Notes under the pieces: model-generated
Told to the model about the DNA's origin: nothing
Database searches by the model: none
Seen by the model: the letters and a program-made list of their open reading frames with translations, nothing else
Source of the DNA: Ignavibacteria bacterium
Lineage (GTDB): Bacteria; Bacteroidota; Ignavibacteria; Ch128b
Reading direction: 5' to 3'
DNA length: 64,000 nucleotides
Assembly (NCBI GenBank): GCA_013177855.1
Contig: JABLYA010000006.1
Location: forward strand, 1-64,000
Shown here: piece by piece, positions 2,460 to 56,524 of the stretch
How positions within the stretch are numbered: position 1 is the first letter of the stretch
Layout: each line of letters begins with the position of its first letter
Translations under genes and position numbers: made by a program

Positions 2460-2696
2460 ATGAAACACATAAAGACACAACAAGAATTTAACGAATCAAA
2501 TAACTTTGATGTTAAAGATAAAAAAATAAATATATCAGATATTATAAATCGTTTATTATTACTACAAAGAGTTGATATAGATACATTATATAATGGTGAA
2601 TTTATTGAAAAAGATGAGCGTATAGAAGAAGATGGTCAATATGTTAGGAGTGAAGATTTAGATAAACTTATATCTGAATTGAAACAACTTCTCTAA
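2460..2696 (+). CDS. Small protein with capsid-targeting-like N-terminus
   Basis: 78 aa, acidic, mostly helical. It begins MKHIKTQQEFNESNNF. The opening (Met, basic/aliphatic residues, then EFNES) recurs in many small proteins of this window and resembles the capsid-targeting peptide of T4 internal proteins (MKTYQEFIAE type). The remainder (ISDIINRLLLLQRVDIDTL, EDLDKLISELKQLL) is amphipathic helix without a known domain. It may be a prohead core or ejected protein; this is inference. Confidence 0.55.
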   Translation: MKHIKTQQEFNESNNFDVKDKKINISDIINRLLLLQRVDIDTLYNGEFIEKDERIEEDGQYVRSEDLDKLISELKQLL

Positions 2697-2900
2697 ATGA
2701 CTTAATAACAACTTCAAACAATTTCATTGAATGTTAAAGTGTCAACAATTTTAAAAAAAAGTAGGTTATAAACAATTTATTAATGAGTCTAACTTAATGT
2801 ATGTTGTTGCAAAAAGGTAATAATGTTAAAGAAAGTAAAAAAAATTCACGATACAACTGAAGTTATTCCAAAAGTTTCATATCCTATTTCTACATATTAA
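2697..2900 (+). pseudogene. Decayed small gene(s) with a tag remnant
   Basis: No intact gene is visible between 2697 and 2897. A short frame at 2761-2820 reads VGYKQFINESNLMYVVAKR and stops; YKQFINES is the same N-terminal tag found on the neighbouring small proteins, but here without a start codon and cut off after 19 codons. A further frame at 2823-2900 encodes 25 aa (MLKKVKKIHDTTEVI...). Both look like debris of a tagged gene broken by indels. Confidence 0.35.
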
Positions 2901-3609
2901 ATTATAATTTTCAAATCTATTATATTATTTGGTTTTATATTATCATAAGTATAACAACCTTTTGAATGAGGATCTTTATATAATTTTTCTATATCTTTTG
3001 TATTTATTTGAAATATACAATAATCTAATTTTTCTTTATCGTTTAACAGATCATTTTTTCTTAAACTTTTTGCAGTATTAATAGAATTATTTAAGCTAAA
3101 ATCAAAATATATTCTATCAGGGTAATTATTTTCTCTATTGTTTGATTTTGGTGATAATCCATTTTTTAATATTTTTGATTTTTTTCTTAATGGTGTTGTA
3201 TGGTATAAAACTTTTGGTATTTTTAAAACTTTATCATATTTTGCATCAAAGAAAAATTCTACATATGTTTTTTATTTTTTATCAGATTATTTAATTTTGT
3301 TTCAATATCTTCTGTATTAGAATCGCTTGGCATATTAAATATATTCGACATATTTTTTTGATTCCATACTTTAATTATAATTGGATAATATCCCAAATTA
3401 TTTATTATATCGAACCAATAATCTAAAAATTTTATACTAGGTATACTATCAAAAAATATAGAAAATGTATTATTAATATAATCTACATCAATTTTATATG
3501 ATGGTGAATTAACCATCTCATGTTCTATAATTTTAATACTTTTTTTCAAGTCGTGAGTCTTTATTAAACCCTCATCTATTCTTATTAAAAAATTTTTATA
3601 ATTAATCAT
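2897..3609 (-). CDS. ADP-ribosyltransferase-like protein, split by a frameshift
   Basis: Two minus-strand frames join into one 237-residue protein if one A is added to the A6 run at 3268-3273. The first frame (3609 to 3259) begins MINYKNFLIRIDEG. The second continues KTYVEFFFDAKYDKVLKIPK and then VLYHTTP...ILKNGLSPK...PDRIYFDFS, ending CIFQINTKDIEKLY...YTYDNI. The order Tyr-His-Thr-Thr, GL.P, RIYF is what small ADP-ribosyltransferase/RNA 2'-phosphotransferase-fold domains in phages look like (substrate-binding H..T and a following beta strand). T4 uses such enzymes (Alt, ModA, ModB) to modify host proteins. The tag-like N-terminus would fit an ejected protein. Fold assignment is by motif only. 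Confidence 0.45.
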
Positions 3610-3612
3610 ATT

Positions 3613-4143
3613 TTATATATTAAATGTCTTTTTATAAACATTCCTTATTGCGTTTATACCACTTTCGTTTATTTCTCTAGTTCCTATACCTGCAAAATTT
3701 TCTGTCAATTTGGGAGTGACACAAACTTCAAATTTTGTATCATTCCAGAAATACCATTTTTCTTTTTCTTGGTCAAATACATAGACAGGTTTACCACAAT
3801 CTATCGACATTTGTACAGCCCAGCCTGTTCCACCATCCACTTTATTGCCTTTAATAATACCAATAGCATAGACAGCATCTGCATTTTTAACTTGACACCA
3901 GTTTCTTGCCAATAAGTGCATATATTTTTCAATATTATGCCTTTTTAAAGTCTTGTTTGCTAATAATATTTTTTGAACACCTTCATTATAATCTTCTTCA
4001 GATATTTCGTGTTCTGGTAGTGATTTTGGGTTCGGTTTTTTATACCAATAATGAATGTGGTTTAAAACACCAAATTCTCTGCCTATTTCATCCCATTTAG
4101 TATCAGAACCTATTGCACCTCCAGTATGATTTGTATATGTCAT
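3613..4143 (-). CDS. SLOG/Rossmann-fold nucleotide-binding-like protein
   Basis: 176 aa from the ATG at 4143 (MTYTNHTGGAIGSDTKWDEI), which overlaps the upstream stop as ATGA. A 22-residue longer frame exists, but the overlap favours this start. Features: N-terminal GGAIGSD, a central VKNADAVYAIG strand followed by DGGTGWAVQMSIDCGKPVYV, and C-terminal ENFAGIGTREI. This pattern is common in phage and bacterial proteins related to the SLOG/LOG and YpsA superfamily, which bind nucleotides or nucleotide-derived signals. The biochemical role is unknown. Its neighbours (ART-like, Dam, NUDIX) suggest nucleotide or defence-signal metabolism. Confidence 0.6.
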   Translation of the reverse strand: MTYTNHTGGAIGSDTKWDEIGREFGVLNHIHYWYKKPNPKSLPEHEISEEDYNEGVQKILLANKTLKRHNIEKYMHLLARNWCQVKNADAVYAIGIIKGNKVDGGTGWAVQMSIDCGKPVYVFDQEKEKWYFWNDTKFEVCVTPKLTENFAGIGTREINESGINAIRNVYKKTFNI

Positions 4144-4436
4144 TTTAATATTCTTTTTAATTTGTTTTGTCTTATAGTATTTAGATATTCTTTTGTTGTA
4201 ATTTTCCAATAATCATTTTTGGTAATATATTTTTTATTACCATTTGCCCACATAAATTCTGTAATATCATCACTCGGATTCGTCCGAAGTTTATGATATT
4301 TTTCTAATGATTCTAAGTCCCAAACATAATATGGTTTGAATTGTCTTGGTTTTTCTTTATATTCTTCATATGTTTCAGCATAAATCCAGCACCAACCGTG
4401 GTCATAATACTTCATTAACACTAAATCATCTTCCAA
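4140..4436 (-). CDS. Hypothetical protein between dam and the SLOG-like gene
   Basis: 98 aa, aromatic-rich (HGWCWIYAETYEEYKEKPRQ, PYYVWDLESLEKYHKLRTN). It starts 5 nt after the dam stop and ends with TGA overlapping the next ATG (ATGA), so the three genes look like one translationally coupled unit. No family recognised. Confidence 0.6.
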   Translation of the reverse strand: MEDDLVLMKYYDHGWCWIYAETYEEYKEKPRQFKPYYVWDLESLEKYHKLRTNPSDDITEFMWANGNKKYITKNDYWKITTKEYLNTIRQNKLKRILK

Positions 4437-4441
4437 AGTTT

Positions 4442-5263
4442 CTACCTATCATAATTCATTATTATTACTTCTTGTGATTTTTTTATATTCTTCTTTCTTG
4501 CAACAATCTCATAGTTATAATCTAATATCTTATATCTATAACCATCATTAATTAAATCGTCTATTAATTTACTTCTTTTTCCGTTTTTATGTTCACCTAA
4601 CACACCAGATAACATAAATGAAGAACCATTCTTATCCAATTCTTTTATGTAGTTGTAAAGTAAAACATCATCACTTCTTTTCCAATATGAATTATAACCT
4701 GCTTCCGTTTCTGTGTAAGGTGGATCAATGTAAACCATTGAAGGTTTTGTAATTTTTATTTCATTAAAATGTTTTGATACAAATATTATTTTGTCTTTAT
4801 ACGGTCTAACATATTTTGTAAATTCGTCTATTTTTTTCTGTGTACTATCATTAAATGTTCTTTTACCAAATGTTTGATTATATAATAATTTTTGTGAAAA
4901 ACGCATCATATTGTTAGTTGAACTTAACATTAATGCCCATAATTTTTCTGGTGTTTTTTCTTTATTGAAAGATTCACGTAATTCTAAAAATTTTTCTTTG
5001 TCTTCTTTACCAGGACATATTTGTTTTGTCTTTTCTATTATATTATCTGATTCTAACAGAGATTTATGAATTTCTATTAATTCTAATATAATATCATTGG
5101 CTAAAATTTTATCATATTTTTCTAAAACATTTGCGCCAACAACGAAGGAACCAGTGAATAAATCTACGAAATACTTCTTGGTATAATCCATTTCTGGTAA
5201 TATCTGTTCAAGTAATTTGAATTTTGAACCAGTATAATTATAGGGTGTATTGATGTATTTCAT
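4442..5263 (-). CDS. dam: DNA adenine-N6 methyltransferase (Dam/D12 class)
   Basis: 273 aa. The N-terminal motif (YNYTGSKFKLLEQIL) and VDLFTGSFVVGANV form the S-adenosylmethionine pocket, and MVYIDPPYTETEAGY carries the catalytic DPPY of D12-class adenine methylases. Order and length match T4 Dam (about 260 aa). It methylates adenine in phage DNA, probably at a GATC-like site, and so protects it from restriction or marks it. First gene of a minus-strand unit with the two genes downstream; divergent from the gene at 5328 across a 64-nt A/T-rich gap. Confidence 0.9.
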   Translation of the reverse strand: MKYINTPYNYTGSKFKLLEQILPEMDYTKKYFVDLFTGSFVVGANVLEKYDKILANDIILELIEIHKSLLESDNIIEKTKQICPGKEDKEKFLELRESFNKEKTPEKLWALMLSSTNNMMRFSQKLLYNQTFGKRTFNDSTQKKIDEFTKYVRPYKDKIIFVSKHFNEIKITKPSMVYIDPPYTETEAGYNSYWKRSDDVLLYNYIKELDKNGSSFMLSGVLGEHKNGKRSKLIDDLINDGYRYKILDYNYEIVARKKNIKKSQEVIIMNYDR

Positions 5264-5296
5264 ATTTGCTTATAGATTTTATTTTTATTTTTGTTT

Positions 5297-5308: not shown

Positions 5309-5327
5309 TTAAAAATAAAGTTGTATT

Positions 5328-5843
5328 ATGAAAATTAAAAAATTTGAAGAATTAAATGAAGCAATTGGTACTATATCATTACTTAAATTTAGATTATATG
5401 ATAGAACTTACGGACCTGAAGCAAATAAAGCAACACTATCTGTTTATTTAAGACCTGATAATACATTAGGATATTCATATTATGGTGGTTGGCAAGGTTC
5501 TGGTATTGGTTTCGCAATATCTAATTTACAGTTAAAAAAGTCTTTACCGTCTTCTGCTAAAAAGTTTAAAAATGTGAAAGAATTGCAAAAAGAAATCGAA
5601 AGTATATTAGCAACTGGTGTTGGTTCACATTGGATTAAAGAAGTTGAAGAATTAAATGAATTACCATCTGCACAAAAAGAAAAGACTTATGGTGGTTTAG
5701 AAGGAAGAAACAATATAATAGCTAAAATAAAATATTTATCAAATATAGATCATGTTGGTTCTGCTGATGATATGCAGGATGCCTTAGAAGAGATTTATGA
5801 TTTATTAGATAAACATTTTCCAGATATTGAAGAGGAGGCATAA
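5328..5843 (+). CDS. Tagged hypothetical protein (FEELNE N-terminus)
   Basis: 171 aa, beginning MKIKKFEELNEAIGTISLLK. The first ten residues match the F..(F/L)NE tag shared by small proteins here. The middle contains a Gly/Tyr-rich beta segment (LGYSYYGGWQGSGIGFAISN), followed by helices and a very acidic end (FPDIEEEA). No known domain. First of three closely packed genes: the stop is 2 nt before the next ATG, and a strong GAGGAGG ribosome binding site sits inside its last codons. Confidence 0.6.
   Translation: MKIKKFEELNEAIGTISLLKFRLYDRTYGPEANKATLSVYLRPDNTLGYSYYGGWQGSGIGFAISNLQLKKSLPSSAKKFKNVKELQKEIESILATGVGSHWIKEVEELNELPSAQKEKTYGGLEGRNNIIAKIKYLSNIDHVGSADDMQDALEEIYDLLDKHFPDIEEEA
5832..5838 (+). 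promoter_or_regulatory. Strong Shine-Dalgarno GAGGAGG for the gene at 5846
   Basis: GAGGAGG lies 7 nt before the ATG. It uses GAG codons for Glu where this genome normally uses GAA, so it looks selected. Such strong sites are unusual for Bacteroidota, whose genes mostly lack them. A second copy (GGAGGAGG, 6304-6311) precedes the gene at 6319 with the same spacing. Confidence 0.55.
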
Positions 5844-5845: not shown

Positions 5846-6319
5846 ATGAAAAATATTTTAAATTTTCAAAGTTTTAACGAAAAGAAAAAATTTTCAGAAA
5901 AAGAAATAGATAATATTCTTGACAAAATGAATAAGGGTAAATCTTTAACAAGAGAAGAAGAATTTATACTTAGAAATCCTGATGGCAAAAAGGAGGATTT
6001 TAAAAAGACTTTAGATTATAAAGATACATTAATTGAAGATATTATATCTAAAGTAGAAAGATATGGTAGTTACATTACTATAAGAGATATGGAAGCTGAT
6101 TCTTCACCTGTATATAAATATGGAGATCAAGAAATTCATTTGATTGAGAGAATTACATCATCTGATGTTGAGGTTGTTATCTATGGTGGATATAAATATG
6201 AAAGTGAATTAGGATCTTATGATGTTAAATATGATGAATTAACCATTGAAACACTTGAAGAAATAAATGATTTGTTAGATCAAGCAATAGAAAATAATTT
6301 ATTGGAGGAGGATATATAA
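5846..6319 (+). CDS. Tagged hypothetical protein (FQSFNE N-terminus)
   Basis: 157 aa starting MKNILNFQSFNEKKKFSEKE, a clear member of the tag family. After the tag comes a basic helix (IDNILDKMNKGKSLTREEEF) resembling the SMR-like or proteolysis-linked segments of core proteins. It continues with a beta section (SPVYKYGDQEIHLIERIT) and an acidic C-terminus. It ends in TAATG overlap with the next gene, so translation is probably coupled. Function unknown; possible internal head protein. Confidence 0.6.
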   Translation: MKNILNFQSFNEKKKFSEKEIDNILDKMNKGKSLTREEEFILRNPDGKKEDFKKTLDYKDTLIEDIISKVERYGSYITIRDMEADSSPVYKYGDQEIHLIERITSSDVEVVIYGGYKYESELGSYDVKYDELTIETLEEINDLLDQAIENNLLEEDI

Positions 6320-6726
6320 TGAAATATATTAAAAAAATAAACGAATTATTTTTAGGTGGAGATAAAGAGCTAATTTATTATGAAACTAGCAAATATTTTA
6401 ATCCAACTACAATTGAAACATCTGATCCAGATGCCATCAGTATAAAACATCAACCAGATGAAATTGGAAAACCTGATATTTTGAAACAAAAGGAATTAAT
6501 TTTGAAAGCATCAAAAATTATTGGTAAAAAACTTTCAACATACGAAAAAGATAGAAAGATTGTTACAAAAGAAATATCAGATTTTATTGAAGCAAATATC
6601 GATAATAAAGAATTAAGTAAAGAAATAGATAAATTAATTGATATAAATAAAATACTTAAGGAATCTAAAAAATGTAATTTATATATATTCGATGGTCTTG
6701 AAAAAACTAATACATTTACAAAATAA
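6319..6726 (+). CDS. Tagged hypothetical protein
   Basis: 135 aa beginning MKYIKKINELFLGGDKE. The opening MKYIKKINE is a shorter variant of the tag. The rest is charged and helical (KELSKEIDKLIDINKILKE) and ends FDGLEKTNTFTK. The start overlaps the previous stop (TAATG) and has a GGAGGAGG site 7 nt upstream. No known family. Confidence 0.55.
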   Translation: MKYIKKINELFLGGDKELIYYETSKYFNPTTIETSDPDAISIKHQPDEIGKPDILKQKELILKASKIIGKKLSTYEKDRKIVTKEISDFIEANIDNKELSKEIDKLIDINKILKESKKCNLYIFDGLEKTNTFTK

Positions 6727-6769: not shown

Positions 6770-7357
6770 ATGGAAAAATTTACAAAAATTAAAAAATTAC
6801 AAGAAATACAATTACAAAAAGAAAAAAATTCCATCATTTATGACGGTTATATAAAAGTCATAAAACAAGATGATTGGGAATTTATTGATGAAAAAGATTG
6901 TGTTGTTTGTCTTGTATATATTCAAGATGAAGGTTATGTTCTAATGCGTAGTGAACCTATACCACCTTGGCAATACAAATATAGAAATAATATTCAAAAA
7001 CTTTCTGGTAAGTTTTTAACTCTTGTTTCTGGTACTATTGAGGAAGGCGAAACACCTCATCAAACATTAAGACGAGAATTATATGAAGAGGCGGGTATTG
7101 TTTTAAATGAATTTTATCAATTTGAAATTGAAGGACCATTTTTTCAAACAAAAAGTAGCTCAGTACAATATTATCTTTGTCTATTAGTTCTTAATTATAA
7201 TGATTATAAAATTGTTACAGCTCCTGGTGATGGTTCAAAAACTGAACAATTATCTAAAACTATAAAAATAAATATTGCTGATTTAGATCATATAAAAATT
7301 AATGATTTAATAAGTAAATACCTTATTAATAAATTAAAAACAGATTTTAACATATAA
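6770..7357 (+). CDS. NUDIX hydrolase
   Basis: 195 aa. A complete NUDIX box spans about residues 88-110: GTIEEGETPHQTLRRELYEE followed by AGI, matching G-x5-E-x7-R-E-U-x-E-E-x-G-U with all metal-binding glutamates. The preceding PPWQYKYRNNIQKLSGKFL and overall size resemble ADP-sugar/NDP-X pyrophosphatases. It would hydrolyse nucleoside diphosphates linked to another moiety (for example ADP-ribose, Ap4A or an RNA cap); the substrate cannot be read from sequence. T4 has a related enzyme, NudE. An ADP-ribose-directed activity would pair naturally with the ART-like gene upstream. The Lys-rich N-terminus is loosely tag-like. Confidence 0.85.
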   Translation: MEKFTKIKKLQEIQLQKEKNSIIYDGYIKVIKQDDWEFIDEKDCVVCLVYIQDEGYVLMRSEPIPPWQYKYRNNIQKLSGKFLTLVSGTIEEGETPHQTLRRELYEEAGIVLNEFYQFEIEGPFFQTKSSSVQYYLCLLVLNYNDYKIVTAPGDGSKTEQLSKTIKINIADLDHIKINDLISKYLINKLKTDFNI

Positions 7358-7373: not shown

Positions 7374-8129
7374 ATGATTAAAAATTGGGATGAATTCATA
7401 AACAAAAAAGAAATTTGTGGCGAAAATAAAAAACTAAAAGAAAATATATTGAATGAACAACATAAAGAAAAAGAGAAATTAACAAATAATTTTTATTATC
7501 TAACATTTTATATAGTCAATTTGCATACAGATTCATATATTGAAAGAATATACGAAGGTATTAATAAAGAAGATGCATATTATTATGCTAAAAAAGCAAA
7601 ACCATTAACAAAATATTATAATACAATTGTTGAAATATGTAGTTATACAAACAAATATATATATGTTAATAATTATGAAGATGTAGATAATTATCCTATC
7701 AATAATTATTATGACGATCCAAAATATTATAAATTAATTGAAGATAATGAAGATAACAAATCATGTGAATATTATACAATAGATGGTTCTGAAAAATCAG
7801 CCGAAAAATTAATGAATGATGTATTAGAGTGGTTATATAAAGAATATGGAAGAAGAAAATCTAAATATGCAAGTATATATCTAGATGAAGATAAAACAAT
7901 AAAGCTTCAAATAAGGGTTGCTGATCATTCAGAAAATCCATTAAATAAAGGTAGATATACATTATCAGATTATTATCTAAGTATTGTAATTGCTAATAAA
8001 AATGAAACAAAAAATCGTTATCATTCAAAAACTGAGTTATATTATACGGGCGATGATACACTTGATGATATTAAAAACGATGTTATAAATTATATTGAAA
8101 ATTTAAAATATAAAGAAAATTTAATTTAA
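7374..8129 (+). CDS. Tagged hypothetical protein (WDEFINK N-terminus)
   Basis: 251 aa, starting MIKNWDEFINKKEICGEN. A Lys/Glu-rich linker (residues about 20-40) leads to a domain with NFYYLTFYIVNLHTDSYIER and a C-terminal KTELYYTGDDTLDDIKNDVI. No family recognised. The WDEFINK opening again resembles a capsid-targeting peptide; the linker could hold the protease cleavage point, by analogy with T4 internal proteins. Last gene of the plus-strand run, convergent with ppk2. Confidence 0.6.
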   Translation: MIKNWDEFINKKEICGENKKLKENILNEQHKEKEKLTNNFYYLTFYIVNLHTDSYIERIYEGINKEDAYYYAKKAKPLTKYYNTIVEICSYTNKYIYVNNYEDVDNYPINNYYDDPKYYKLIEDNEDNKSCEYYTIDGSEKSAEKLMNDVLEWLYKEYGRRKSKYASIYLDEDKTIKLQIRVADHSENPLNKGRYTLSDYYLSIVIANKNETKNRYHSKTELYYTGDDTLDDIKNDVINYIENLKYKENLI

Positions 8130-8188: not shown

Positions 8189-9337
8189 TTATAATATTTC
8201 TACAATTACTTCTGGATAAATATAAAATGTTTTTTCTTTTGGTTCATAAGGGATTTTATTTAAAATATATTTTATTACATTTAATTTAGCAATTCTCTTT
8301 TCATTAGAATCAACTACTACCCAAGGACAATTTTTAGTTGATGTTTTCTGAAACATTTGCTCTTTATATTTTGTGAATAAATCCCATTTAGTCATAGTCT
8401 TTTCATCATTTGGACTAAATTTCCAATATTTCAGAGGATTATTCTGTCTCATTTTGAATCTTAATTTTTGAGTGTCTTGATCAATAGAAAACCAAAATTT
8501 TATAATATAATAACCTTCTTCTAATAAACTATTTTCAAATGGAACTACCTCTTTCATAAAATTTTTATATTCTTCTTCTGAACAATAACCCATGACAGGA
8601 TCATTAACAGCTCTATTATACCAAGAACGGTCATATAATGTCATATGTCCTGGTGCTGGTAATTTTAATTTATATCTTGAAAACCAATCTTTTTTTTCTT
8701 CTTCTGTTGGAATACCAAATGTTGCAATATGACAATATTTAGGATCTAAGAATTCCGTAATAGTTTTAATTACTGAACCTTTACCTGCAGCATCACGTCC
8801 TTCAAAAATAATAACTAATTTATTTTTTGATGTTTTTAACCATTCTTGAAGTCTTAATAATTCAATCTGTAAAGGTCTTAATTCATTAATAAAGTCTTTT
8901 TTACCAACCTTTAATAATCTTTCAGATTTTAATTTTTTCAATTCATCAAACTCTTCATCATTTTCAAATTTATTAGATTTATCTTTAAAATATAATTTTA
9001 TTCTTTTAGGTAATGTTTTAATGTATGAATCAATATATTTCTCTATTCTTGCGTCAGTTATTTTAGGATTTATAGTAAGATTGTGCAAACCTCTGATGAA
9101 TGAGTCTAAGTTTAATTCATATATTGCATCTCTATCAAGAACTTTTTCGAAATTGTCTAATATCCTTTTAATATCATTCTTTTTTAATTTCTTATTAACT
9201 AAAACATCTTCTTTAACATTTAAAATGATTTTTTTTATTTTTTCTTCTAATTTCTTAGGATCTTTAAACATATTTTTAACTAAATCCAAAATAGATTCAT
9301 TAATTGTAAATACTTTGAAGTTCTTCTCTATTGCCAT
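8189..9337 (-). CDS. ppk2: Polyphosphate kinase 2 (PPK2) with N-terminal extension
   Basis: 382 aa. The C-terminal two thirds is PPK2: Walker A EGRDAAGKGS (about 179-188), LPAPGHMTLYDRSWYNRA (Walker B, lid Asp and Arg) and KFWFSIDQDTQKLRF. These enzymes transfer phosphate between polyphosphate and nucleotides, making NDP/NTP from NMP/NDP or storing polyphosphate. About 130 residues precede the kinase domain, more than usual. The extension begins MAIEKNFKVFTINESILDLV, where FKVFTINES looks like the tag of the small proteins, followed by helices. A phage PPK2 could fuel nucleotide synthesis from host polyphosphate, or act in the incoming particle if the tag directs packaging (inference). ATG spacing is normal; the upstream neighbour is convergent. 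Confidence 0.9.
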   Translation of the reverse strand: MAIEKNFKVFTINESILDLVKNMFKDPKKLEEKIKKIILNVKEDVLVNKKLKKNDIKRILDNFEKVLDRDAIYELNLDSFIRGLHNLTINPKITDARIEKYIDSYIKTLPKRIKLYFKDKSNKFENDEEFDELKKLKSERLLKVGKKDFINELRPLQIELLRLQEWLKTSKNKLVIIFEGRDAAGKGSVIKTITEFLDPKYCHIATFGIPTEEEKKDWFSRYKLKLPAPGHMTLYDRSWYNRAVNDPVMGYCSEEEYKNFMKEVVPFENSLLEEGYYIIKFWFSIDQDTQKLRFKMRQNNPLKYWKFSPNDEKTMTKWDLFTKYKEQMFQKTSTKNCPWVVVDSNEKRIAKLNVIKYILNKIPYEPKEKTFYIYPEVIVEIL

Positions 9338-12225: not shown

Positions 12226-12768
12226 TTAATTATATTCATTACCATACTTATTGATAAGATTCAATATGTATTTAGAATGTTCTATATTCTTTTCATTTGC
12301 ATAACCAATGGACATGTGCAAACCCCAATAAGGTCTACCAAGACCAAGTTCTTGTCTGATAGAATGTAAAAGTTTTCTTTCTTCTTCTGGTACAACCAAC
12401 CACCAGTGTTCTGCATTAGAACGAGCATCAACACTTAATGATATTTCTATTTCTTTACCATCCCACTTGTTCTTTACACTATTCCAAATAACTTCTGCTT
12501 CACTTTCAGAACAATTAAGACCTCTCCTAATATCATTTACACTATCATTAATGAATGACACATGAGCACCACGCAACGGTTTATTGAGTTTAAGATTATA
12601 TCTTTTCTCTATAAACCAAGCATATAACTCACTTATCTCACCATCAATCATAACCAAAGCCATTCTTTTCCAGTCAGCTTGATTAAGATGTTTCTTAGTC
12701 TTATTGTCTGGATCAAAACGAATTATACCTTTATATGTGATGATATTTTTTATAGTGCAAATATACAA
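12226..12768 (-). CDS. 2H phosphoesterase-like protein (possible anti-CBASS/RNA repair)
   Basis: Two H-x-S motifs, RGAHVSFIND (His69) and WGLHMSIGYA (His151, counted from a TTG at 12768), separated by about 80 residues. This is the hallmark of the 2H phosphoesterase fold. Family members open 2',3'-cyclic phosphates or cyclic oligonucleotides; the T4 anti-CBASS protein Acb1 belongs here. Conserved-looking residues (GIIRFDPDNKTKKH) lie before the first ATG (at codon 36), so translation must start upstream at a non-ATG codon. A perfect TATATTTG promoter box overlaps this region, so the message may be almost leaderless. It sits near the RNA ligase, consistent with RNA repair or signal degradation. 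Confidence 0.6.
   Translation of the reverse strand: MYICTIKNIITYKGIIRFDPDNKTKKHLNQADWKRMALVMIDGEISELYAWFIEKRYNLKLNKPLRGAHVSFINDSVNDIRRGLNCSESEAEVIWNSVKNKWDGKEIEISLSVDARSNAEHWWLVVPEEERKLLHSIRQELGLGRPYWGLHMSIGYANEKNIEHSKYILNLINKYGNEYN
12758..12765 (-). promoter_or_regulatory. Host-type -7 box TATATTTG for the 2H gene
   Basis: Minus-strand TATATTTG, same octamer as in front of the tRNA. Transcription would begin around 12750, leaving almost no leader before the conserved protein sequence. Confidence 0.4.
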
Positions 12769-19127: not shown

Positions 19128-20795
19128 ATGATAATAACCACAGTTGTTCATGTAAAAATTCAAGGACCAAATATAAAACATTATAGACAATTAGGATATG
19201 ATGTGAAAGTTGGTGAAATTTTAACAATTCCTATAGAACATTTAAGTAAAAAATCACATCAGAAAATTAAAATAAAATGTGATGTTTGTGGAATAGAAAA
19301 AGAAACTTTTTATTTCGCATATACCAAATATTTAGAAAAATCACCAGATAATAAATATCGTTGTAATAAATGTAACATAGCATTGAGAGAAAAAACCTGT
19401 TTAGAAAAATATGGTGTTAAAAATTCAATTCAATCAGAAGAAATAAAAGAAAAAAGAACTCGATTGTTTTTAGAAAAATATGGTGTAAAACATTATAATA
19501 AATTAGATATTTTTAAAGAAAAACGAAAAAATACTAATTTAGAAAAATATGGTGTTGAATCACCTATGAAAGACGAAACAATTAAAAGTAAACAATTAAA
19601 AACAACATTTGATAAATTTGGTGTAAAATGTTCATTGCAAAATGAAAATGTTAAAATTAAAACATTAAAAACAATGAATGATAAATATGGTGTTGATTAT
19701 TCGATGCAAAATACTGAAATTAAAAAAAAGATTTTAACAAAAAGATTAGAAACAATAATAAAAAAAATTCAAGAAAAAAATAAACACATACTAAAAATAT
19801 CAAATAATATATATACTATTAAATGTGATTTATGTAATAAAACATACGAAATTAGTTCTCATATGTACTGTCAAAGACGAATACAAAACACAGTACAATG
19901 TACAATATGCAATCCAATAGGTAATAAATTTTCTGGTAAAGAAAATTTATTACTAAATTTTATAAAAGAAAATTATAATGGTGAAATTATATTAAATTGT
20001 AGAAATATTATATCTCCATATGAATTAGATATTTATTTATCTAATTTAAATTTAGCTTTTGAATTTAATGGTTTATATTGGCATAGTGAATTATATAAAG
20101 ATAAAAATTATCATATAAATAAAACAGATTTATGTCAAGAAAAAGGAATTCAATTAATTCACATTTGGGAAGATGATTGGAATTTTAAACAAGATATAGT
20201 TAAATCAATGATTCTAAATAAATTAGGTAAAACACCAAATAAAATTTATGCTAGAAAGTGTAAAATCAAAGAAATAAATGATAATAAATTAGTTAGAAAA
20301 TTTTTGGACGAAAATCATATACAAGGACATATTGGATCTAGTGTAAAAATAGGTTTGTTTTATAATGATGAATTAGTGTCTTTAATGACTTTTGGTAAAA
20401 AACGAGTTTTTATGAATTCAGTTTCAAAAGAAGATGAGTGGGAACTTTTAAGATTTTGTAATAAATTAAATACTAATGTTATAGGTGCTGCAAGTAAATT
20501 ATTTAAATATTTTACTAAAAATTTTACATTTACAGAAATAACTACATATGCAGATAGAAGTCATTCTAATGGTAAATTGTATGAAACAATTGGCTTAAAA
20601 TTTATAAGTAAAACAAATCCAAACTATTATTATGTAATAGACGGTATAAGAAAACATAGATTTGGGTTTAGGAAAAATGTTTTAGTTGATAAAGGTTATG
20701 ATAAAAATAAATCTGAACATGAAATTATGTTAGAAAGAGAAATAAATAGAATTTATGATTCAGGATCACTTAAATATATATTTCAAAAATTTTAG
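19128..20795 (+). CDS. Free-standing homing endonuclease, VSR/EDxHD-like
   Basis: 555 aa in four parts: an N-terminal zinc-ribbon-like segment (CDVCGIEKETFY...CNKCN); five tandem copies of a LEKYGV..(S/P)..(Q/K).EEIK-type DNA-binding repeat (NUMOD-like, residues about 85-205); a second CxxC segment (CDLCNKTYEI...CTICNP); and a VSR-like nuclease core (SPYELDIYLSNLNLAFEFNG, YWHSELY, GIQLIHIWEDDW). A C-terminal GNAT-like domain (DENHIQGHIGSSVKIGLFYN, LLRFCNKLN, TYADRSHSNGKLY) follows. This layout is known from mobile endonucleases of T4-like and SPO1-like phages, which cut related phages that lack the gene. It interrupts the baseplate cluster and has the low G+C of an old resident. Confidence 0.8.
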   Translation: MIITTVVHVKIQGPNIKHYRQLGYDVKVGEILTIPIEHLSKKSHQKIKIKCDVCGIEKETFYFAYTKYLEKSPDNKYRCNKCNIALREKTCLEKYGVKNSIQSEEIKEKRTRLFLEKYGVKHYNKLDIFKEKRKNTNLEKYGVESPMKDETIKSKQLKTTFDKFGVKCSLQNENVKIKTLKTMNDKYGVDYSMQNTEIKKKILTKRLETIIKKIQEKNKHILKISNNIYTIKCDLCNKTYEISSHMYCQRRIQNTVQCTICNPIGNKFSGKENLLLNFIKENYNGEIILNCRNIISPYELDIYLSNLNLAFEFNGLYWHSELYKDKNYHINKTDLCQEKGIQLIHIWEDDWNFKQDIVKSMILNKLGKTPNKIYARKCKIKEINDNKLVRKFLDENHIQGHIGSSVKIGLFYNDELVSLMTFGKKRVFMNSVSKEDEWELLRFCNKLNTNVIGAASKLFKYFTKNFTFTEITTYADRSHSNGKLYETIGLKFISKTNPNYYYVIDGIRKHRFGFRKNVLVDKGYDKNKSEHEIMLEREINRIYDSGSLKYIFQKF

Positions 20796-21591: not shown

Positions 21592-21915
21592 TTATATTCC
21601 AAGTGTATTGACAATCGGTACATCAGGATACCCACCATTAATTACTAAATCATTTGTAACATTGGTTGAAGGATTTATTGTTATATCTGTACCAACCGCA
21701 GGCTCACTATTGGACCTAACCAAATTTAAAATTTCATCTTCTTTGACTTCTATTGGTTTTTTTGAAAATATTGTATTAGTCATTAAATTAACAATATATG
21801 AATATTTTGAATTAATTTTAACAATTTTAGCAATATTACCATTTTTTAATTTAACAATATCGCCAATTGTATATTTTTGTCTTTTAAATTCTTCGTATGT
21901 TTGTAAATAATTCAT
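21592..21915 (-). CDS. Tagged hypothetical protein (YEEF N-terminus)
   Basis: 107 aa from the second ATG (MNYLQTYEEFKRQKYTIGDI); another ATG lies three codons upstream. The tag-like YLQTYEEF opening is followed by an SH3-like strand set (VKLKNGNIAKIVKINSKYSY) and a flexible Pro/Asn/Thr tail ending VPIVNTLGI. Possibly packaged or virion-associated; function unknown. Confidence 0.5.
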   Translation of the reverse strand: MNYLQTYEEFKRQKYTIGDIVKLKNGNIAKIVKINSKYSYIVNLMTNTIFSKKPIEVKEDEILNLVRSNSEPAVGTDITINPSTNVTNDLVINGGYPDVPIVNTLGI

Positions 21916-22032
21916 ATTAACCATATTTTCTTCATAATAATCATCTATAAATTTTCAATTAATGTCTATGTAATCTATATTTTTATTTGAATTACAAAAA
22001 ATATAATCTTTCATTTATAGATTTTAAATATT

Positions 22033-22428
22033 TCATTTTTGAGTTTGATTTTGAACCATTTCTGATTCTGTTTTTCCACAATCGATTTTAATTTCATATT
22101 GATCAAAAATATCATATAATTTATTAAAAATTGTTTCAGATTCTTCTACATTTGTAGCACTTCTTAATTCATCTGCTACAATAGGTTCTATTTCATTCCA
22201 ACATGAATCACCAATTATTGCTGATATATTTTGTTGTTGTTCCATTAATAATGAAGCATATTGATTATTAAAATCTATTATTGATATTATATTATTCACA
22301 TAATCCTGCCATTGTTTAGAAATATCAATAGTCATTTTCCAATTTTCATCATATTGACCATCATCTATTTCTATAAATAATTTACCTTTTACTGGTTGAC
22401 TATTTACAAATGATTCAAAATTTTTCAT
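22033..22428 (-). CDS. Tagged hypothetical protein (FESFVN N-terminus)
   Basis: 131 aa starting MKNFESFVNSQPVKGKLFIE, a clear tag. A beta segment and an acidic helical section (WNEIEPIVADELRSATNVEE) follow. A TTTAATATATAA copy ends only 5 nt before the ATG, so if used as promoter the leader would be minimal. No known domain. Confidence 0.5.
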   Translation of the reverse strand: MKNFESFVNSQPVKGKLFIEIDDGQYDENWKMTIDISKQWQDYVNNIISIIDFNNQYASLLMEQQQNISAIIGDSCWNEIEPIVADELRSATNVEESETIFNKLYDIFDQYEIKIDCGKTESEMVQNQTQK

Positions 22429-50680: not shown

Positions 50681-51844
50681 ATGCCAAGTACAATACAAAT
50701 GATGAGTCAAAATAAAAATTTATTACCAGATGTTCCATCAGGTAGTAGTCTTTTATTTTTAAATGAAGATGATGGAAGATTTTGGCTAAAAACGCCAGAT
50801 GGTAATTTCATTCCTTCTTCAAATAATTTGCCAGAATTAGAAGAAGGTAAATATCTAAAAGTAGAAGGTGGTGTTCTTGTGTGGGCAGATGGAGGTAGTG
50901 GTATATTAGATATATTATACGATGATTTAATTTCGCTTTCAGAATTGGCAAAAATGGTTAGATTTAGAAAGATTTGTAAATTGGAGTTGGACAAGTGATA
51001 TTTCTCAATTTAATATGGGGAATGCTACTACAACTAATTTAATTATAAATCCTCTCTCATATGAAGATTATTATACTTTTATTAATAATTCTATGGTATC
51101 AAATATAGAAATTGGACATAGATATATATCAAATTCATACATAACAATGTTGAATAATATTGTTTTTAGAGAAGCTTGTATGTCAAGCAAAATAAGAGAA
51201 AAAAGTAATAATTGCACAATCAGTGACGATTTTAATAATAATGAAATTGGCATTTTTTTAGTAAAAATATTTTAGGAAACAGTTTCGTTTCTAACACAAT
51301 CGGAAACTATTATATTTCTAACACAATCGGAAACGATTACATTTCTAACACAATCGGAAACTATTATATTTCTAACACAATCGGAAACTATTATATTTCT
51401 AACACAATCGGAAACGATTACATTTCTAACACAATCGGAAACTATTACCAATATAACACAATCGGTGATTATTTTGAGTATAATTATATAGGTGATAATT
51501 TTATTAATACTGATATTGGAGATTATATGAATAATAATAATAAAATAGGTAATAATAATGGTGCTGATAAAGGAGGTATCTATAGAAATTCTATAGGTAA
51601 TAATTTTAACAGAAATGTTTTTGAAGATTATGTTGGTGATATTCGAGGTCGTATTATAATAGGAAATGATTTTCAGTGTAATTATGTTAGATCAGGTGCT
51701 ATTCCTAGCAATACAGACTTTACATTAGCAACACATGTATATGGAGATTATGATTGTGAATTATATAGACGATCAGATGGAACACCGAGATTGAAATATT
51801 ATGATAATACCGATACGTTAAATGTTGTTAATATAACAGATTAA
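50681..51844 (+). CDS. Repeat-type tail fibre, interrupted by two homopolymer frameshifts
   Basis: Three frames join into one protein of about 388 aa if one A is removed from the A5 run near 50950-50954 and one T is added to the T7 run near 51252-51258. Start MPSTIQMMSQNKNLLPDVPS; the second piece reads WLDLERFVNWSWTSDISQFN and MVSNIEIGHRYISNSYITML. The third piece has six exact YISNTIGN-type nonapeptides, then more diverged NxIGx copies (EYNYIGDNFINTDIGDYMNN) and an end RLKYYDNTDTLNVVNITD. The regular nine-residue N-x-I-G rhythm suggests a narrow beta-helix or trimeric spike. If not sequencing errors, the gene would be inactive. Confidence 0.65.
51288..51449 (+). repeat. 27-bp tandem repeat, six copies
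   Basis: The 20-nt core TTTCTAACACAATCGGAAAC recurs unchanged at 51288, 51315, 51342, 51369, 51396 and 51423, with a 7-nt TATTATA or GATTACA spacer. Period 27 keeps the reading frame and encodes (Y/D)YISNTIGN. The repeats have very little drift, so they expanded recently or are kept alike by recombination. Confidence 0.9.
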
Positions 51845-52443: not shown

Positions 52444-53094
52444 TTATTTTGTACCCTTTAAATGTGGTTGTAGTTTTCCTTTGTGATATACATTACCTTC
52501 AGAATCTACAAACTCTTCATAAAAATGCCAACCTCTTGGTTTTTTAACTTTCTTTGCTTCTTCTTCGAGACGTTTTATTTCATTTTCTGAATAAATAGTT
52601 TTTTGAGGACCAGATTCTAACATGATAGGTTCATCAAAACTTACGATATTTATTTCTTGAATATTTTTTTTCTTATTCTTAATTCTATCTAAAAATCCTC
52701 TTTCTTCTAAGTATTTAATATATTCCTCCAATTTTGAAATTTGAGCTTTATAAATACTTTCCATTTCTTTATATTTTAGAATTATCAATTGTTTTTGATT
52801 TTCAACATTATCTATTTTTCTTGACAATTCATCATATCTTTCTCTTACTCTATAATTCTCTGCTACTAAATCAGTTAATATATTTTTTTCTGTAGTTTTG
52901 TATTCATGAACATCTGGTTTATCTTTATCTTTAATGATAACAAGAATATTTTCACCACTATCTTTTAAGAATGCAATTTCTTGTTTTAGTTTTATTATTT
53001 CTGTTTGATAATTTTGAATTTGCGTTCTTAATTGGTCGATAGTTGTTAAATATTTTTCATATTCATCATATGATATAGTAACCATTTTTTTCAT
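52444..53094 (-). CDS. Coiled-coil protein
   Basis: 216 aa. Residues 5-150 are one long coiled coil (YEKYLTTIDQLRTQIQNYQT; ERYDELSRKIDNVENQKQLI) and the C-terminus reads WHFYEEFVDSEGNVYHKGKL. The start overlaps the upstream stop (ATGA-type, positions 53091-53094). No catalytic motif; probably a scaffold or adaptor. Confidence 0.55.
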   Translation of the reverse strand: MKKMVTISYDEYEKYLTTIDQLRTQIQNYQTEIIKLKQEIAFLKDSGENILVIIKDKDKPDVHEYKTTEKNILTDLVAENYRVRERYDELSRKIDNVENQKQLIILKYKEMESIYKAQISKLEEYIKYLEERGFLDRIKNKKKNIQEINIVSFDEPIMLESGPQKTIYSENEIKRLEEEAKKVKKPRGWHFYEEFVDSEGNVYHKGKLQPHLKGTK

Positions 53095-53582
53095 TTCTTT
53101 ATCTTGTTATCATTTTCTATAAATTTCTTAATATATAAATTAGATTCAATACTAATATCGTTTTTATATAAAAAATAATATTTTTTACCTCTTATTTCTT
53201 TAGTCATATAAATATCATCTTTTCTACAAATATTTTGTAACATTAACATATATAAACTATCTCTTTCATCATCAAAAGATGAATAACCTAAAAAATCAAC
53301 TTCATTTTTATCAATAAATTCTTCTATACTATTTTTAATATTTGATATTACTTTATATCCACGATTGTCTATATTTCTTAATAATTTATATACTTTATTT
53401 TTTTCTAAATCAATATAATAAAAATATATATTATAAGCATTTAAACCAATAGAATCAAAATGTATAAAATATTGATCATCAAGAATGTCAAATTTAGCAA
53501 TCCAACCATATTCTGATTTTTTAATCCATTTATAATTCTTAGTTTCAAACAACTCTTTTATATAAATAATAAATTTTTTCAT
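53091..53582 (-). CDS. Tagged hypothetical protein
   Basis: 163 aa, opening MKKFIIYIKELFETKNYKWI, loosely tag-like. Beta/alpha, aromatic-rich (YGWIAKFDILDDQYFIHFDS; GKKYYFLYKNDISIESNLYI). Coupled to the coiled-coil gene by a 4-nt overlap. Function unknown. Confidence 0.5.
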   Translation of the reverse strand: MKKFIIYIKELFETKNYKWIKKSEYGWIAKFDILDDQYFIHFDSIGLNAYNIYFYYIDLEKNKVYKLLRNIDNRGYKVISNIKNSIEEFIDKNEVDFLGYSSFDDERDSLYMLMLQNICRKDDIYMTKEIRGKKYYFLYKNDISIESNLYIKKFIENDNKIKK

Positions 53583-53874: not shown

Positions 53875-55442
53875 ATTACTATTTTTAATTCATCAAATGG
53901 ATATTCTTGTTTCTTATATAATTCATCTCTTCGTGAGATATAGTGTTTATACAATATCGTTTTATAAGAACTGTGAAATTGATCAACAATATCAAAAATA
54001 ATTGCTTTGTCACCTTCTTTGTCTTTGTGTAATCTTAAAGCACGACCAATGGATTGTAATACAATTCTTGCAGATTTAAATGAATCAGCAAATATTATAT
54101 TTTTTAATGCTTTGATACTTACACCAGTTGATAAAGTTCCAAAAGATGCCACTAACACTTTTGGTTTACCATCTGTTATTTCCATCTGTTTCTTAATATA
54201 TTCTCTTTTTTCAGAAGAAGTTTGACCATCGATATAATAAAAGTCTTTATCTAGTACATTTGACCTGAAAAAATTATATAATTCCGTACCATAATCAATA
54301 TTATGAAATAGAACAAGAGAATTGTTTTTGAATTTACCAACTAACTTTGATAAGAAAATCTTTCGTTTATCTGAATTTTGTGCATATTCTTTCTCTAACT
54401 CATATGCTCTTTTTCCATCACCATACTTTTTAATAGTATAAACACTTTCCGCAAATGATTTATCATCATACTGCAATATCAAACATTTAATTTTGACATT
54501 TGAAATCAAACCTTTATTCATTAATTCTTTGGCTTTGACTGTAATCAATTTTGGACCTGTAACAGATTCAATAGCCATCCATTCAGATGTACCATTCATA
54601 GGATATGTACCAGACATACCTAATCTATAATGAGCATGTCCAAATGTTCTTCTTAATATAGTTGTTAATGTTGCTGCTTTCGCAGTGTGACATTCATCAA
54701 CCATAACAACATTAAATTGTTTAAAGAAATTTGGTTCTAACTGTGCTGTTCCCCAGTTAATTAATGATTGATAAGTTCCTATATATACGTTTGGTTCTTT
54801 TCCATCTCTAACTTTTCTTGGTTTATCAGACATGATTTCTTGAATATTCAAATCAACAGGATTTTTATTTTCTTTATTAAATCCTAAATTATAATCTATC
54901 ATATCATCGTAAAATTGTGTTACAAGTGATATAGATGGAACTATTAATAAAATTTTTGCATCAGGTTTCTTTTTAAGTATGTAAAAAACCATTATAGAAA
55001 ATATGAGTGATTTACCACCAGAAGTTGCAACCTCGATTGTACCATATCTGTGTTTCAACATTTTAAATACTGCATCAATTTGATGTTCATAAGGTACAAA
55101 CGGTTTACCTTTTAGTTTGTGATCTTTAAAAAATTCTTTTGTAAAATTTGTTACATCTTCCAAGGTTATATTATTGTCTCTTGGAAAAATTTCTTTATTG
55201 ATAACATTAAAAGGATAGCCATATTCTTTACAGCAATTATAACATTCTTGCCATAAACCAAAATCTATAATACCATTATTAAAATAATCAAACTTACCGT
55301 CCCAATTTGTAAGTTTGAAACGAGGCATGAAACGATATCCTTTTACATAAGGATTAAGCCATTTTTTTAAATTGTTAAATTCTTCTCTAGTAGATTCTTT
55401 AAGAACAATTTTACTGTAATCTTTACTAATCTCAAATTTCAA
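53871..55442 (-). CDS. uvsW: UvsW-type DNA/RNA helicase
   Basis: 523 aa (T4 UvsW 503). Superfamily 2 motifs in order: PYEHQIDAVFKMLKHRYG then TIEVATSGGKSLIFS (motif I, about 139-145), VVMVDECHTAKA (DECH box), RLGMSGTYP (motif III), LVASFGTLSTGVSIKALKNI and QSIGRALRLHKDKEG (motif VI). The N-terminal 110 residues match the small UvsW DNA-binding domain (FKLTNWDGKFDYFNNGIIDF). It unwinds R-loops and moves branched recombination intermediates, ending origin-dependent replication. The start is TTG at 55442 overlapping the upstream stop as TTGA, so it is translated by coupling. Confidence 0.9.
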   Translation of the reverse strand: MKFEISKDYSKIVLKESTREEFNNLKKWLNPYVKGYRFMPRFKLTNWDGKFDYFNNGIIDFGLWQECYNCCKEYGYPFNVINKEIFPRDNNITLEDVTNFTKEFFKDHKLKGKPFVPYEHQIDAVFKMLKHRYGTIEVATSGGKSLIFSIMVFYILKKKPDAKILLIVPSISLVTQFYDDMIDYNLGFNKENKNPVDLNIQEIMSDKPRKVRDGKEPNVYIGTYQSLINWGTAQLEPNFFKQFNVVMVDECHTAKAATLTTILRRTFGHAHYRLGMSGTYPMNGTSEWMAIESVTGPKLITVKAKELMNKGLISNVKIKCLILQYDDKSFAESVYTIKKYGDGKRAYELEKEYAQNSDKRKIFLSKLVGKFKNNSLVLFHNIDYGTELYNFFRSNVLDKDFYYIDGQTSSEKREYIKKQMEITDGKPKVLVASFGTLSTGVSIKALKNIIFADSFKSARIVLQSIGRALRLHKDKEGDKAIIFDIVDQFHSSYKTILYKHYISRRDELYKKQEYPFDELKIVI

Positions 55443-55632
55443 AAGCCTAAAAATAATTTTTGAGTTTCCGTATCTAACTTGTAGCCTAAGAAACTATTTT
55501 CTTTACAATCTTTTAAATTGTAAAATATAATGCCCAACCCAATTCATATTCTTTAGTATTTCTTTTTTCAAAAGAGTTTACATATTTCTTCTGAAATTCA
55601 ATAAAATGTTTAAATTTAACTTCTATTTGCAT
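55439..55632 (-). CDS. Small protein upstream of uvsW, frameshifted
   Basis: Begins MQIEVKFKHFIEFQKKYVNS ... YELGWALYFTI and stops early. Adding one T in the short T-run near 55530-55540 gives YNLKDCKENSFLGYKLDTET then QKLFLGF, with the stop TGA overlapping the uvsW TTG start. Repaired length about 64 aa. The perfect TTGA coupling argues that the longer frame is the real gene. In T4 small genes (uvsY.-1, uvsY.-2) lie between uvsY and uvsW. Confidence 0.5.
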
Positions 55633-55645
55633 ACATTTTTTATTT

Positions 55646-56110
55646 TTAATCTAAACCTGTGGCATTATATAAATCAACCTTTGTTTTAACACTATAAATA
55701 ACATGATCAACTGTTTTAATTGATTCTGTCAAAAAATTTATGTAATTTTGCATACATTCCATTTTTGCTTCTTGGTATGCCAAATCTGCTTCAATTAATT
55801 TTGTTTTTTCAGTACCATTAACTTTGATAGGATATTTAGTCGAATACCACTCAAAATGTTTTTTTCTTAATTGTTTTAATTTTGGTAAATCTCTATACAT
55901 CTTATAATACCAATTTGTTCTTTCATCAAGAATTAATTGTCTTTGTGAAGTTGCTTCAGCAGAAAGTTCTATACTCTTCTTCAATTCACAAGTAATTTTA
56001 TTAGAAAGTTTTTCAACAATATCATTCCATCTTTTTTGCCTTTCGATGAAATCTTTTTCTAACTTTTCTAAGATTTCGTCATAATTGACTTTTTCTTTTT
56101 CATCACTCAT
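55646..56110 (-). CDS. UvsY-like recombination mediator (tentative)
   Basis: 154 aa, entirely helical: FIERQKRWNDIVEKLSNKIT, NWYYKMYRDLPKLKQLRKKH, FEWYSTKYPIKVNG, EKTKLIEADLAYQEAKMECM, NYINFLTESIKTVDHVIYSV. T4 UvsY is a 137-residue helical protein with the same plan: a W/L-rich helix, a KL..R..Y..Y segment with a basic GxxK-like turn, then an acid-anchored D followed by a helix pair. UvsY loads the UvsX recombinase on single strands. The location next to uvsW, as in T4, strengthens the call. Sequence identity is too low to see by eye. Confidence 0.5.
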   Translation of the reverse strand: MSDEKEKVNYDEILEKLEKDFIERQKRWNDIVEKLSNKITCELKKSIELSAEATSQRQLILDERTNWYYKMYRDLPKLKQLRKKHFEWYSTKYPIKVNGTEKTKLIEADLAYQEAKMECMQNYINFLTESIKTVDHVIYSVKTKVDLYNATGLD

Positions 56111-56200
56111 TTTAAATAAAATAGTTTTTTTGTTTATATTCTAAAACATAAAAATTGTTTCATATTTAATATATATTTAAAAATCATAAACAAACTATAT

Positions 56201-56524
56201 ATGAGATTACTTAATTGGCAAAAATTTAATTAAAAATTAGAAAATAAAAATCATGCAATTTTATTAAAAACTGGTGAAAAGTTTTGGATTGGATCAGTAA
56301 ATGTATATGATGGTGATATAGAAGAAGTTCATACTTATGAAAGATCTAAATCTAATGATTTTTATCATAGTTTTTATTTTTCAAAAGGTCAATTAGAAAA
56401 GATAGAAAACGAAGAATGTATGATTTTTTGGGTTGATGAATATGGTATAAATGGTGAATGGACACATGGTTCTATATCAGATAGAATAATCTCAGAAATT
56501 GAGAAACAAATAAAAATCGTTTAA
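56201..56524 (+). pseudogene. Tagged small gene with an in-frame TAA
   Basis: ATG at 56201, 25 nt behind a TTTAATATATAT motif. It reads MRLLNWQKFN, TAA (56231-56233), then KLENKNHAILLKTGEKFWIG ... FWVDEYGINGEWTHGSISDR to a stop at 56522-56524. The TAA stands exactly where the tag family has Glu (FNE, GAA), so a single G-to-T change would explain it. Otherwise a 107-aa intact protein. Convergent with the 253-aa gene, overlapping its stop. Confidence 0.5.

Follow-up and report, generated by a model that had tools for sequence, protein, structure and literature searches.

Putative T4-type capsid-targeting tags on many unrelated proteins of a megaphage, and their likeness to a repeat of the phage scaffold

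In phage T4, the internal proteins IPI, IPII, and IPIII and the protein Alt carry capsid-targeting sequences, CTS (Mullaney and Black 1996, as cited in PMC9026906 and PMC5694885). According to the account given in PMC9026906, targeting by the IPIII leader depends on residues 4 and 7, and its processing on residues 8 and 10. IPII and IPIII both start with MKTYQEFIAE/A (AF158101; a slash marks the cleavage site or its predicted position throughout). We analyzed a window of 64,000 nucleotides, C6:1-64000, from a 3.66 Mb assembly of ten contigs (GCA_013177855.1), in which a number of proteins start with a short tag resembling these leaders. A preliminary description of the window had proposed that such tags bring a whole set of phage proteins into the prohead and, with the DNA, into the host. 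A search of titles and abstracts in the open PMC literature found nothing on capsid targeting in megaphages.

The N-terminal tag was confirmed as real and genome-wide. We read it, with a probability of roughly 0.8, as a T4-type CTS, which would end in a site for the prohead protease and whose cargo would be ejected along with the DNA. The proposal of T4-type targeting peptides is thus supported: a protease and a portal were encoded, the tags ended in a capsid-like site, and the T4 IPIII pattern fitted. Directly visible in the sequence were the tag with a cleavage-like end, the protease, a site in the capsid protein that matches this end, an array of repeats in the scaffold, and protein bodies that were mostly unrelated. 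Most likely, this is a greatly expanded T4-type capsid-targeting system in which the tag corresponds to one scaffold repeat.

Tags were carried by contigs C5 (97,967 b), C6 (212,658 b), C7 (147,145 b), C8 (47,125 b), and C9 (15,717 b). The numbers of genes which these contigs shared with the phage LR756501 (735,411 b, G+C content of 32%) in BLASTP at 1e-5 were 38/86, 75/214, 46/179, 18/44, and 3/16, respectively, with 1/68 in C3, 0/45 in C4, and 23/351 in a host sample. Because of the tags and the genes common with LR756501, we infer that C5–C9 form one T4-like megaphage genome of ~520 kb in five contigs, referred to below as the window phage. Its capsid protein (C5:57043-58827) had 63% identity to that of LR756501 and 52% to that of LR756502 (642,428 b). 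Judged by length, LR756501 and LR756502 are among the largest genomes of PMC7162821, in which genomes >634 kb are assigned to the Mahaphage clade, with Bacteroidetes as predicted hosts. The nearest capsid relatives and the genes shared per contig suggest that the window phage may also belong to this clade, for which we found no analysis of virions. The host sample (22 stretches from C1 and C2) and the other-phage contigs C3 and C4 served as controls, and gene starts were called independently of the tag. By eye, C3 and C4 contained short genes resembling those of other phages and were without tags.

The preliminary description had suggested building a profile of the first residues and scanning the full genome; this was done, and the tag was enriched at N-termini above chance genome-wide. 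The loose pattern in which the tag had originally been described was dropped as a counting rule, being too permissive. Four tests were used: a site taken from the capsid protein, the published T4 pattern, a leave-genome-out profile, and an unsupervised motif. The site, [LMIVF]NE/[NSAG], was scored by position in proteins of 120 aa or longer, with residues 5–30 compared with later stretches. It was found in residues 5–30 of 18/359 proteins of the window phage (3–5 in later stretches, 4.9 expected), 38/604 proteins of LR756501 (5–9 in later stretches, 7.0 expected), and 26/606 proteins of LR756502 (3–4 in later stretches, 5.9 expected). The controls gave 2/321 for the host (2–6 in later stretches, 2.5 expected) and 2/86 for C3 and C4 (1.0 expected).

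The T4 IPIII pattern, [FYW]xx[FYW][ILVM]xE, occurred at 61/888 N-termini of LR756501 (5.3 expected), 31/837 of LR756502 (5.2 expected), and 16/498 of the window phage (4.9 expected), with 0/351 in the host and 1/111 in C3 and C4. With NE required, LR756501 still had 34 matches and LR756502 had 13, with 0.4 and 0.7 expected, respectively. The residues of the T4 leader—aromatic at 4 and 7, aliphatic at 8, Glu at 10—were thus present, and as in a CTS they lay in a short leader that opens proteins with unrelated bodies. LR756501 and LR756502 fit the pattern clearly; the window phage, whose tag has drifted, fits it less well.

The profile was trained on the other genome or genomes, for the window phage only on the two other phages, with the cut passed by 0.5% of the internal windows of each genome. 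It recovered 65/915 N-termini in LR756501 (4.6 expected), 62/852 in LR756502 (4.3 expected), and 26/519 in the window phage (2.6 expected). Smaller numbers were found in LR756500 (280 kb; 8/352, 1.8 expected), Chryseobacterium phage MA9V-2 (9/249, 1.2 expected), and T4 (~120 kb; 4/186, 0.9 expected), and the controls gave 3/351 for the host (1.8 expected) and 0/113 for C3 and C4. Tagged proteins therefore number about 60 per genome in LR756501 and LR756502 and about 25 in the window phage. Tag state was shared between orthologues of LR756501 and LR756502 (Fisher p 6e-5). Orthologue families tagged on both sides were few; the best by alignment were those of polyphosphate kinase 2 (PPK2), of a HAD-like protein (C7:121673), and of the window gene at 3259.

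The unsupervised search returned the N-terminal motif K-x-[LIF]-K-[KT]-[FYI]-[EN]-[EQ]-[FN]; its cut was the score passed by 1% of internal windows (2,877 for C6). Trained on C5, C7, C8, and C9, it matched 19/202 N-termini of C6, 8/351 of the host, 1/111 of C3 and C4, and 10/737 windows after an internal Met. Trained on C6, it matched 16/296 N-termini of C5, C7, C8, and C9, 8/351 of the host, 2/111 of C3 and C4, and 16/1,235 windows after an internal Met. Since the host gave 8/351 in both directions of training, the specificity of this motif is moderate only.

A gp21-type protease gene, whose absence would have counted against the preliminary description, was found in the window phage (PF03420, E 9.7e-8, above the Pfam cut-off). 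This S77 prohead protease adjoined a T4-type portal (E 1.4e-67). Among relatives, all five records examined had a match to the S77 protease, three of them above the cut-off. Capsid proteins of relatives (57 sequences recovered from 61 loci) carried [LMIV]NE/N where T4 has its delta cut in 56/57 cases, the exception being LYE/N, and the site was kept even where two residues were inserted before it. [LIV]NE/[SA] was also present in 10 of the 13 protease N-termini recovered from relatives. The tags end in the likely cleavage site of this protease, which was inferred from alignment of the capsid proteins of relatives and not from mass spectra.

In relatives, the protease was fused to a long scaffold in proteins of 807, 699, and 632 aa, and of 1,207 aa in MA9V-2. 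The corresponding gene of the window phage (C5:58877-61379) consisted of two overlapping frames of 441 and 405 aa with an apparent frameshift, the gene being intact in the relatives; the split reflects a true frameshift or else misassembly of the repeat array. In each of the three phages, no other protein had as many T4-type heptads as the protease-scaffold protein. In LR756501, 14 matches were found, 12 of which were spaced by exactly 14 residues (the runner-up, a tape-measure-like repeat protein, had 7); in LR756502, 11 matches, 10 in register (the next protein had 2); in the two frames of the window phage, 10+3 matches, 9+2 in register. Spacing was examined in these three phages only. Among relatives from IMG/VR, the richest frame had 9–16 heptad matches in 52/56 loci and 1–4 in the other four, where the gene may be incomplete. 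In LR756500 (maximum of 2 matches) and MA9V-2 (maximum of 1), the heptad array was not found. Five of the seven residues of the scaffold consensus, YSEYIAE, equal those of the T4 CTS, YQEFIAE. The tag thus resembles a single repeat of the scaffold that has been transferred to cargo proteins, which is a new observation. A separate 207-aa protein of LR756501 (LR756501:619760-620383, across L151/L152) contained the heptads YAEYLAE, YQEYIAE, and YSEYVAE, 14 residues apart, and is perhaps an accessory core protein. A structure model of the protease-scaffold protein, in which the array was drawn as a single long helix, was left unused, pLDDT being mostly <50.

The bodies of the tagged proteins (past residue 25) fell into 56 clusters of 64 in LR756501, 59 of 61 in LR756502, and 23 of 23 in the window phage. 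Ninety tagged proteins of LR756501 and LR756502, picked for their tags out of 127, aligned at MxxxKxFxxFINE and had no other majority motif; this alignment shows that the bodies are unrelated and is not a measure of enrichment. Pfam domains were few: PPK2, 2H phosphoesterase, RNase T, lysozyme, methyltransferases, DHH, and a PQ-loop membrane protein. The 2H phosphoesterase also matched Acb1 (anti-CBASS), and a PADLOC scan of the 90 proteins gave two mad2 matches, one DEDDh, and three weak others. Within the window, the protein at 12226-12768 had two H-x-S motifs, no Pfam match, and no visible tag; the motifs suggest a 2H phosphoesterase, possibly Acb1-like. The LR756502 homologue of the T4 RNA ligase RnlA, with the start MKKLHRYNSFIKE/S, looked tagged though it was outside the profile list, and the RnlA homologues of LR756501 and the window phage were untagged.

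PPK2 of the window contained a long extension ahead of the kinase domain (residues 146–369). Its orthologues started with MISNYDNFMNE/S (LR756501) and MINNFIKFINE/E (LR756502); by the strict profile, the LR756502 leader passed (13.2), and those of LR756501 (7.2 against a cut of 8.3) and the window (5.0 against 8.9) were below. The viral PPK2 proteins compared were 80 of 289 loci, 75 of them with a complete N-terminus, including many near-duplicates (53 distinct leaders): the heptad was present in 17/75, another leader, LLNEIxRIKxVMGxxxE, in 26/75, and neither in the rest. None of 27 cellular PPK2 N-termini had the heptad (29 loci fetched; 40/61 genomes with a match). A protease match was found in 11/19 PPK2 contigs: four of those with the second leader (L269-L312) had an unfused S77 protease frame of 236–243 aa, and six with the F-x-x-F-I type of tag had a frame of 697–744 aa. 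A DNA pattern for the second leader, applied to eight viral records (four of them with that leader), gave eight matches—three known PPK2 leaders, one further N-terminal match (L411), and four that were not N-terminal—so a genome-wide second dialect was not shown by this search. A literature search found no paper on phage PPK2.

The second family, C7:121673, had the motifs DWDDN...TARGH...SDDD, which tentatively suggest a HAD-like protein. Among its relatives (the best 80 of at least 592 viral stretches), [LIVFM]xE/[GASN] occurred within the 24 residues before the conserved core in 37/44 proteins vs 63/558 body windows; 13/60 distinct leaders had no xxE/[GASN] at all in those residues. The AlphaFold model was good (pLDDT 85.8), and a Foldseek search of the PDB with it gave no match at E <= 0.001.

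On the proposed mechanism, the N-terminal heptad of a cargo protein, [FYW]xx[FY][ILV]xE, would join the inner scaffold core during prohead assembly, the protease-scaffold protein of this core bearing the same heptad in its 14-residue tandem array. The S77 protease would then act on cargo, scaffold, and capsid protein alike, cutting after E ([LIVMF]xE/[ASGN]). The tags and the fragments of the scaffold would exit, DNA would be packed, and the trimmed cargo would be ejected into the host along with the DNA at infection. Binding of the tag to the scaffold, cleavage, packaging, and delivery are all proposed here from sequence comparison.

Several results weigh against the reading of the tags as T4-type targeting peptides. 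In the window phage, the strict heptad with NE had no excess (1/498, 0.9 expected), tag state was not significantly shared with orthologues (Fisher p 0.18 and 1.0), and no promoter signal was significant. In Lak-B5 (280 kb, about half of the genome, read with TAG as Gln), the profile gave little excess (4/304, 1.5 expected). Of the known tagged proteins of T4, it recovered IPIII only: IPII scored 6.4 against a cut of 6.6, IPI was far below, and Alt lay outside the gene calls made; its three other T4 matches are no known CTS proteins. Windows after an internal Met passed oftener than other windows (40/1,881 at a 1% cut), and some matches must be false, for example, the UvsW helicase of LR756501 (MKFKLNE) and the PQ-loop membrane protein of LR756502. 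Because only IPIII passes in T4, the profile is neither complete nor clean. The T4 scaffold gp22 was found to lack such a heptad, and the structure model of the protease-scaffold protein was poor (mean pLDDT 45.8). Tagged T4 homologues numbered 2/50 over the three phages, 3.2 being expected at genome rates (0/16, 1/15, and 1/19 per genome, with 0.8, 1.1, and 1.4 expected). Since the expected numbers are this low, the scarcity of tags on these homologues is no evidence; absence of tags from core genes was dropped as an argument, the T4 homologues, mostly core genes, showing no depletion.

Upstream DNA was compared for genes with at least 45 b free. The T4 late promoter TATAAATA was not enriched. 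TATATA preceded 21/24 tagged vs 175/344 untagged genes in LR756501 (p 4.6e-4), and TATATAG preceded 9/19 tagged vs 32/351 untagged genes in LR756502 (p 4.3e-5), p-values that are flattered by choice of the k-mer from the data on which it was tested. TATATA also preceded the portal and capsid genes inspected, as well as half of the untagged genes.

It is unlikely that the tag brings proteins into the prohead mainly as core for assembly, to be destroyed or left behind instead of delivered. Such a role would agree with the heptad shared by the scaffold and with the T4 core proteins gp22, gp67, and gp68, which PMC5694885 describes as cut up by gp21, but enzymes such as PPK2 and the 2H phosphoesterase make little sense as scaffold. 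Still less probable is an address to a compartment other than the prohead, for example a phage nucleus into which the proteins are imported or a replication site that recruits them. In its favour, protein sorting occurs in jumbo phages of other families, a compartment address would likewise show as one short label at the start of many unrelated proteins, and the tags were not seen to be rarer on T4 core homologues; the ending of the tag in the capsid protein's own processing site, its match to T4 CTS residues, and the repetition of the heptad in the prohead protease-scaffold nevertheless all argue for the prohead.

We regard as very improbable that the likeness results from ordinary N-terminal bias (Lys-rich, with A-rich codons) together with chance in an AT-rich genome. 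Lys at residues 2–3 was enriched in host genes as well, and several tags of the window were without E or under the strict cut, but the N-termini of the host and of the other phages were near background where three related phages exceeded it 3- to 14-fold, and the tag was seen best in a 735-kb phage at 32% G+C. A common origin by gene duplication, with one old family retaining its N-termini over diverged bodies, is equally improbable: a few paralogous groups exist among the tagged proteins, the largest having 4 members, but the clustering of the bodies given above and the unrelated Pfam domains (PPK2, 2H phosphoesterase, RNase T, lysozyme, methyltransferase) speak for separate origins.

Returning to the window itself, its tagged and tag-like genes are listed in Table 1; its own tags are mostly degenerate. 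All eight peptides quoted in the preliminary description were present in the sequence; six open intact reading frames, and two lie in broken frames (YKQFINES and MRLLNWQKFN). Its count of at least ten tagged proteins was generous, about nine intact genes being found, and those by a loose standard only. Of the described basic or aliphatic start, Lys at residues 2–3 is not specific, as noted above for the host, and the aromatic residues and the ...NE ending are phage-specific. Weaker forms of the tag had also been claimed for PPK2, where the orthologues make it likely in spite of the low score of the protein's own leader, and for the NUDIX protein, where the identity of the enzyme was borne out and the N-terminus was absent from both motif lists.

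Table 1. Tagged, tag-like, and remnant N-termini in the window
Position	Strand	Feature	N-terminus	Basis
2460..2696	+	Small protein, 78 aa	Tag MKHIKTQQEFNE/S	Passes 0.5% false-positive profile cut
2767..2790	+	Tag remnant, frame riddled with stops	YKQFINES	
3259..3609	-	116-aa protein	Leader MINYKNFLIRIDE/GLIKT	Alignment with relatives; no Pfam match
5328..5843	+	171-aa protein	Tag MKIKKFEELNE/A	Passes profile cut; no Pfam match
5846..6319	+	157-aa protein	Tag MKNILNFQSFNE/K	Unsupervised motif match; Pfam
6319..6726	+	135-aa protein	Tag MKYIKKINE/L	Passes profile cut; added beyond the preliminary list
6770..7357	+	NUDIX protein, tag doubtful	MEKFTKIKKLQE	Pfam NUDIX E 6.9e-9; in neither motif list
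7374..8129	+	251-aa protein	Tag-like MIKNWDEFINKK without E	Unsupervised motif match; no Pfam match
8189..9337	-	Polyphosphate kinase 2 (PPK2)	Leader MAIEKNFKVFTINE/S	Pfam PPK2 E 1.4e-82; orthologues with tag-like leaders
21592..21924	-	Small protein, start 21915 or 21924	MNYLQTYEEFKR, without cleavage site	Unsupervised motif match
22033..22428	-	131-aa protein	MKNFESFVNSQ, site without E	Unsupervised motif match
53091..53582	-	163-aa protein, weak tag	MKKFIIYIKELFE	Unsupervised motif match at 1%; strict T4 heptad
56201..56230	+	No intact gene, stop at codon 11	MRLLNWQKFN	

The strict profile cut was passed by three window genes only (2460, 5328, and 6319), and the strict T4 heptad was found in one only, the weak case at 53091. 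The tag at 3259-3609 on the minus strand is a further addition to the preliminary list; the relatives of this protein were longer (239 and 242 aa) and had similar leaders, MIYSFPKYLQHIKE/G and MIYSFGKFINLLNE/G. The tag of the 5846-6319 protein overlaps a DUF6576-like stretch (residues 9–40) slightly below the Pfam cut-off, and such a short module was also seen in another tagged protein (L162:6786-7484, residues 195–232). Homing-endonuclease-like frames were noticed by eye amid structural genes at window positions 19128-20795 and at C5:54937-56916. A short tandem repeat at 51272-51451 reads (VIVSDCVRN)n on the minus strand. A second shared N-terminus, M[KR][IV]RxGFVSNSSSSSF, was present in the same phage on C6:87124-87783 and several C7 genes.

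If the tags are indeed T4-type CTS, sequence would tell which proteins the largest phages inject, giving a list of first-minute effectors, mostly without known domain. The T4 targeting rule would acquire a defined partner in the scaffold repeat, and a cheap route to anti-defence proteins would be available, with T4 IPI as precedent. The tags would also provide a large natural set of candidate interchangeable labels for loading enzymes into phage heads. More tentatively, and with some doubt on our side, the largest phages may have programmable cargo: the scaffold would be a polymer of the heptad, any protein given a heptad and site would become cargo, clades would use dialects matched to their scaffold-protease, and tens of proteins would be injected, including polyphosphate kinase and candidate anti-defence enzymes. 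The LLNEIxRIKxVMGxxxE leader on PPK2 of phages with an unfused protease would be an example of such a dialect.

Compared with known systems, the tagged proteins resemble, by description, the ejection proteins of the giant phage SPN3US, for which PMC5694885 describes many head proteins, several of them trimmed by the prohead protease; several SPN3US propeptides are described there as >100 residues, in which they differ. MA9V-2 (OR513085) is similar in having the S77 protease on a 1,207-aa protein and tags such as MKNFFQFINE/S, MKNFFSFINE/A, and MKTFTYFINE/A; it differs in its lower number of tags, nine N-termini above the cut, and in the absence of the heptad array. The nearest relatives, LR756501 and LR756502, have the same kind of tag and a protease fused to a scaffold, with clearer tags and an intact scaffold gene in comparison with the window phage. 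As in T4, an N-terminal leader precedes unrelated bodies, an S77 protease is encoded in the genome, and the leader follows the aromatic-x-x-aromatic-aliphatic-x-E order of IPII and IPIII. Unlike T4, where four proteins are tagged and the site is IAE/A with A at P2, these phages have ~25 to 65 tagged N-termini per genome, P2 is mostly N (INE/A), and the heptad of the tag is also the repeat of the scaffold.

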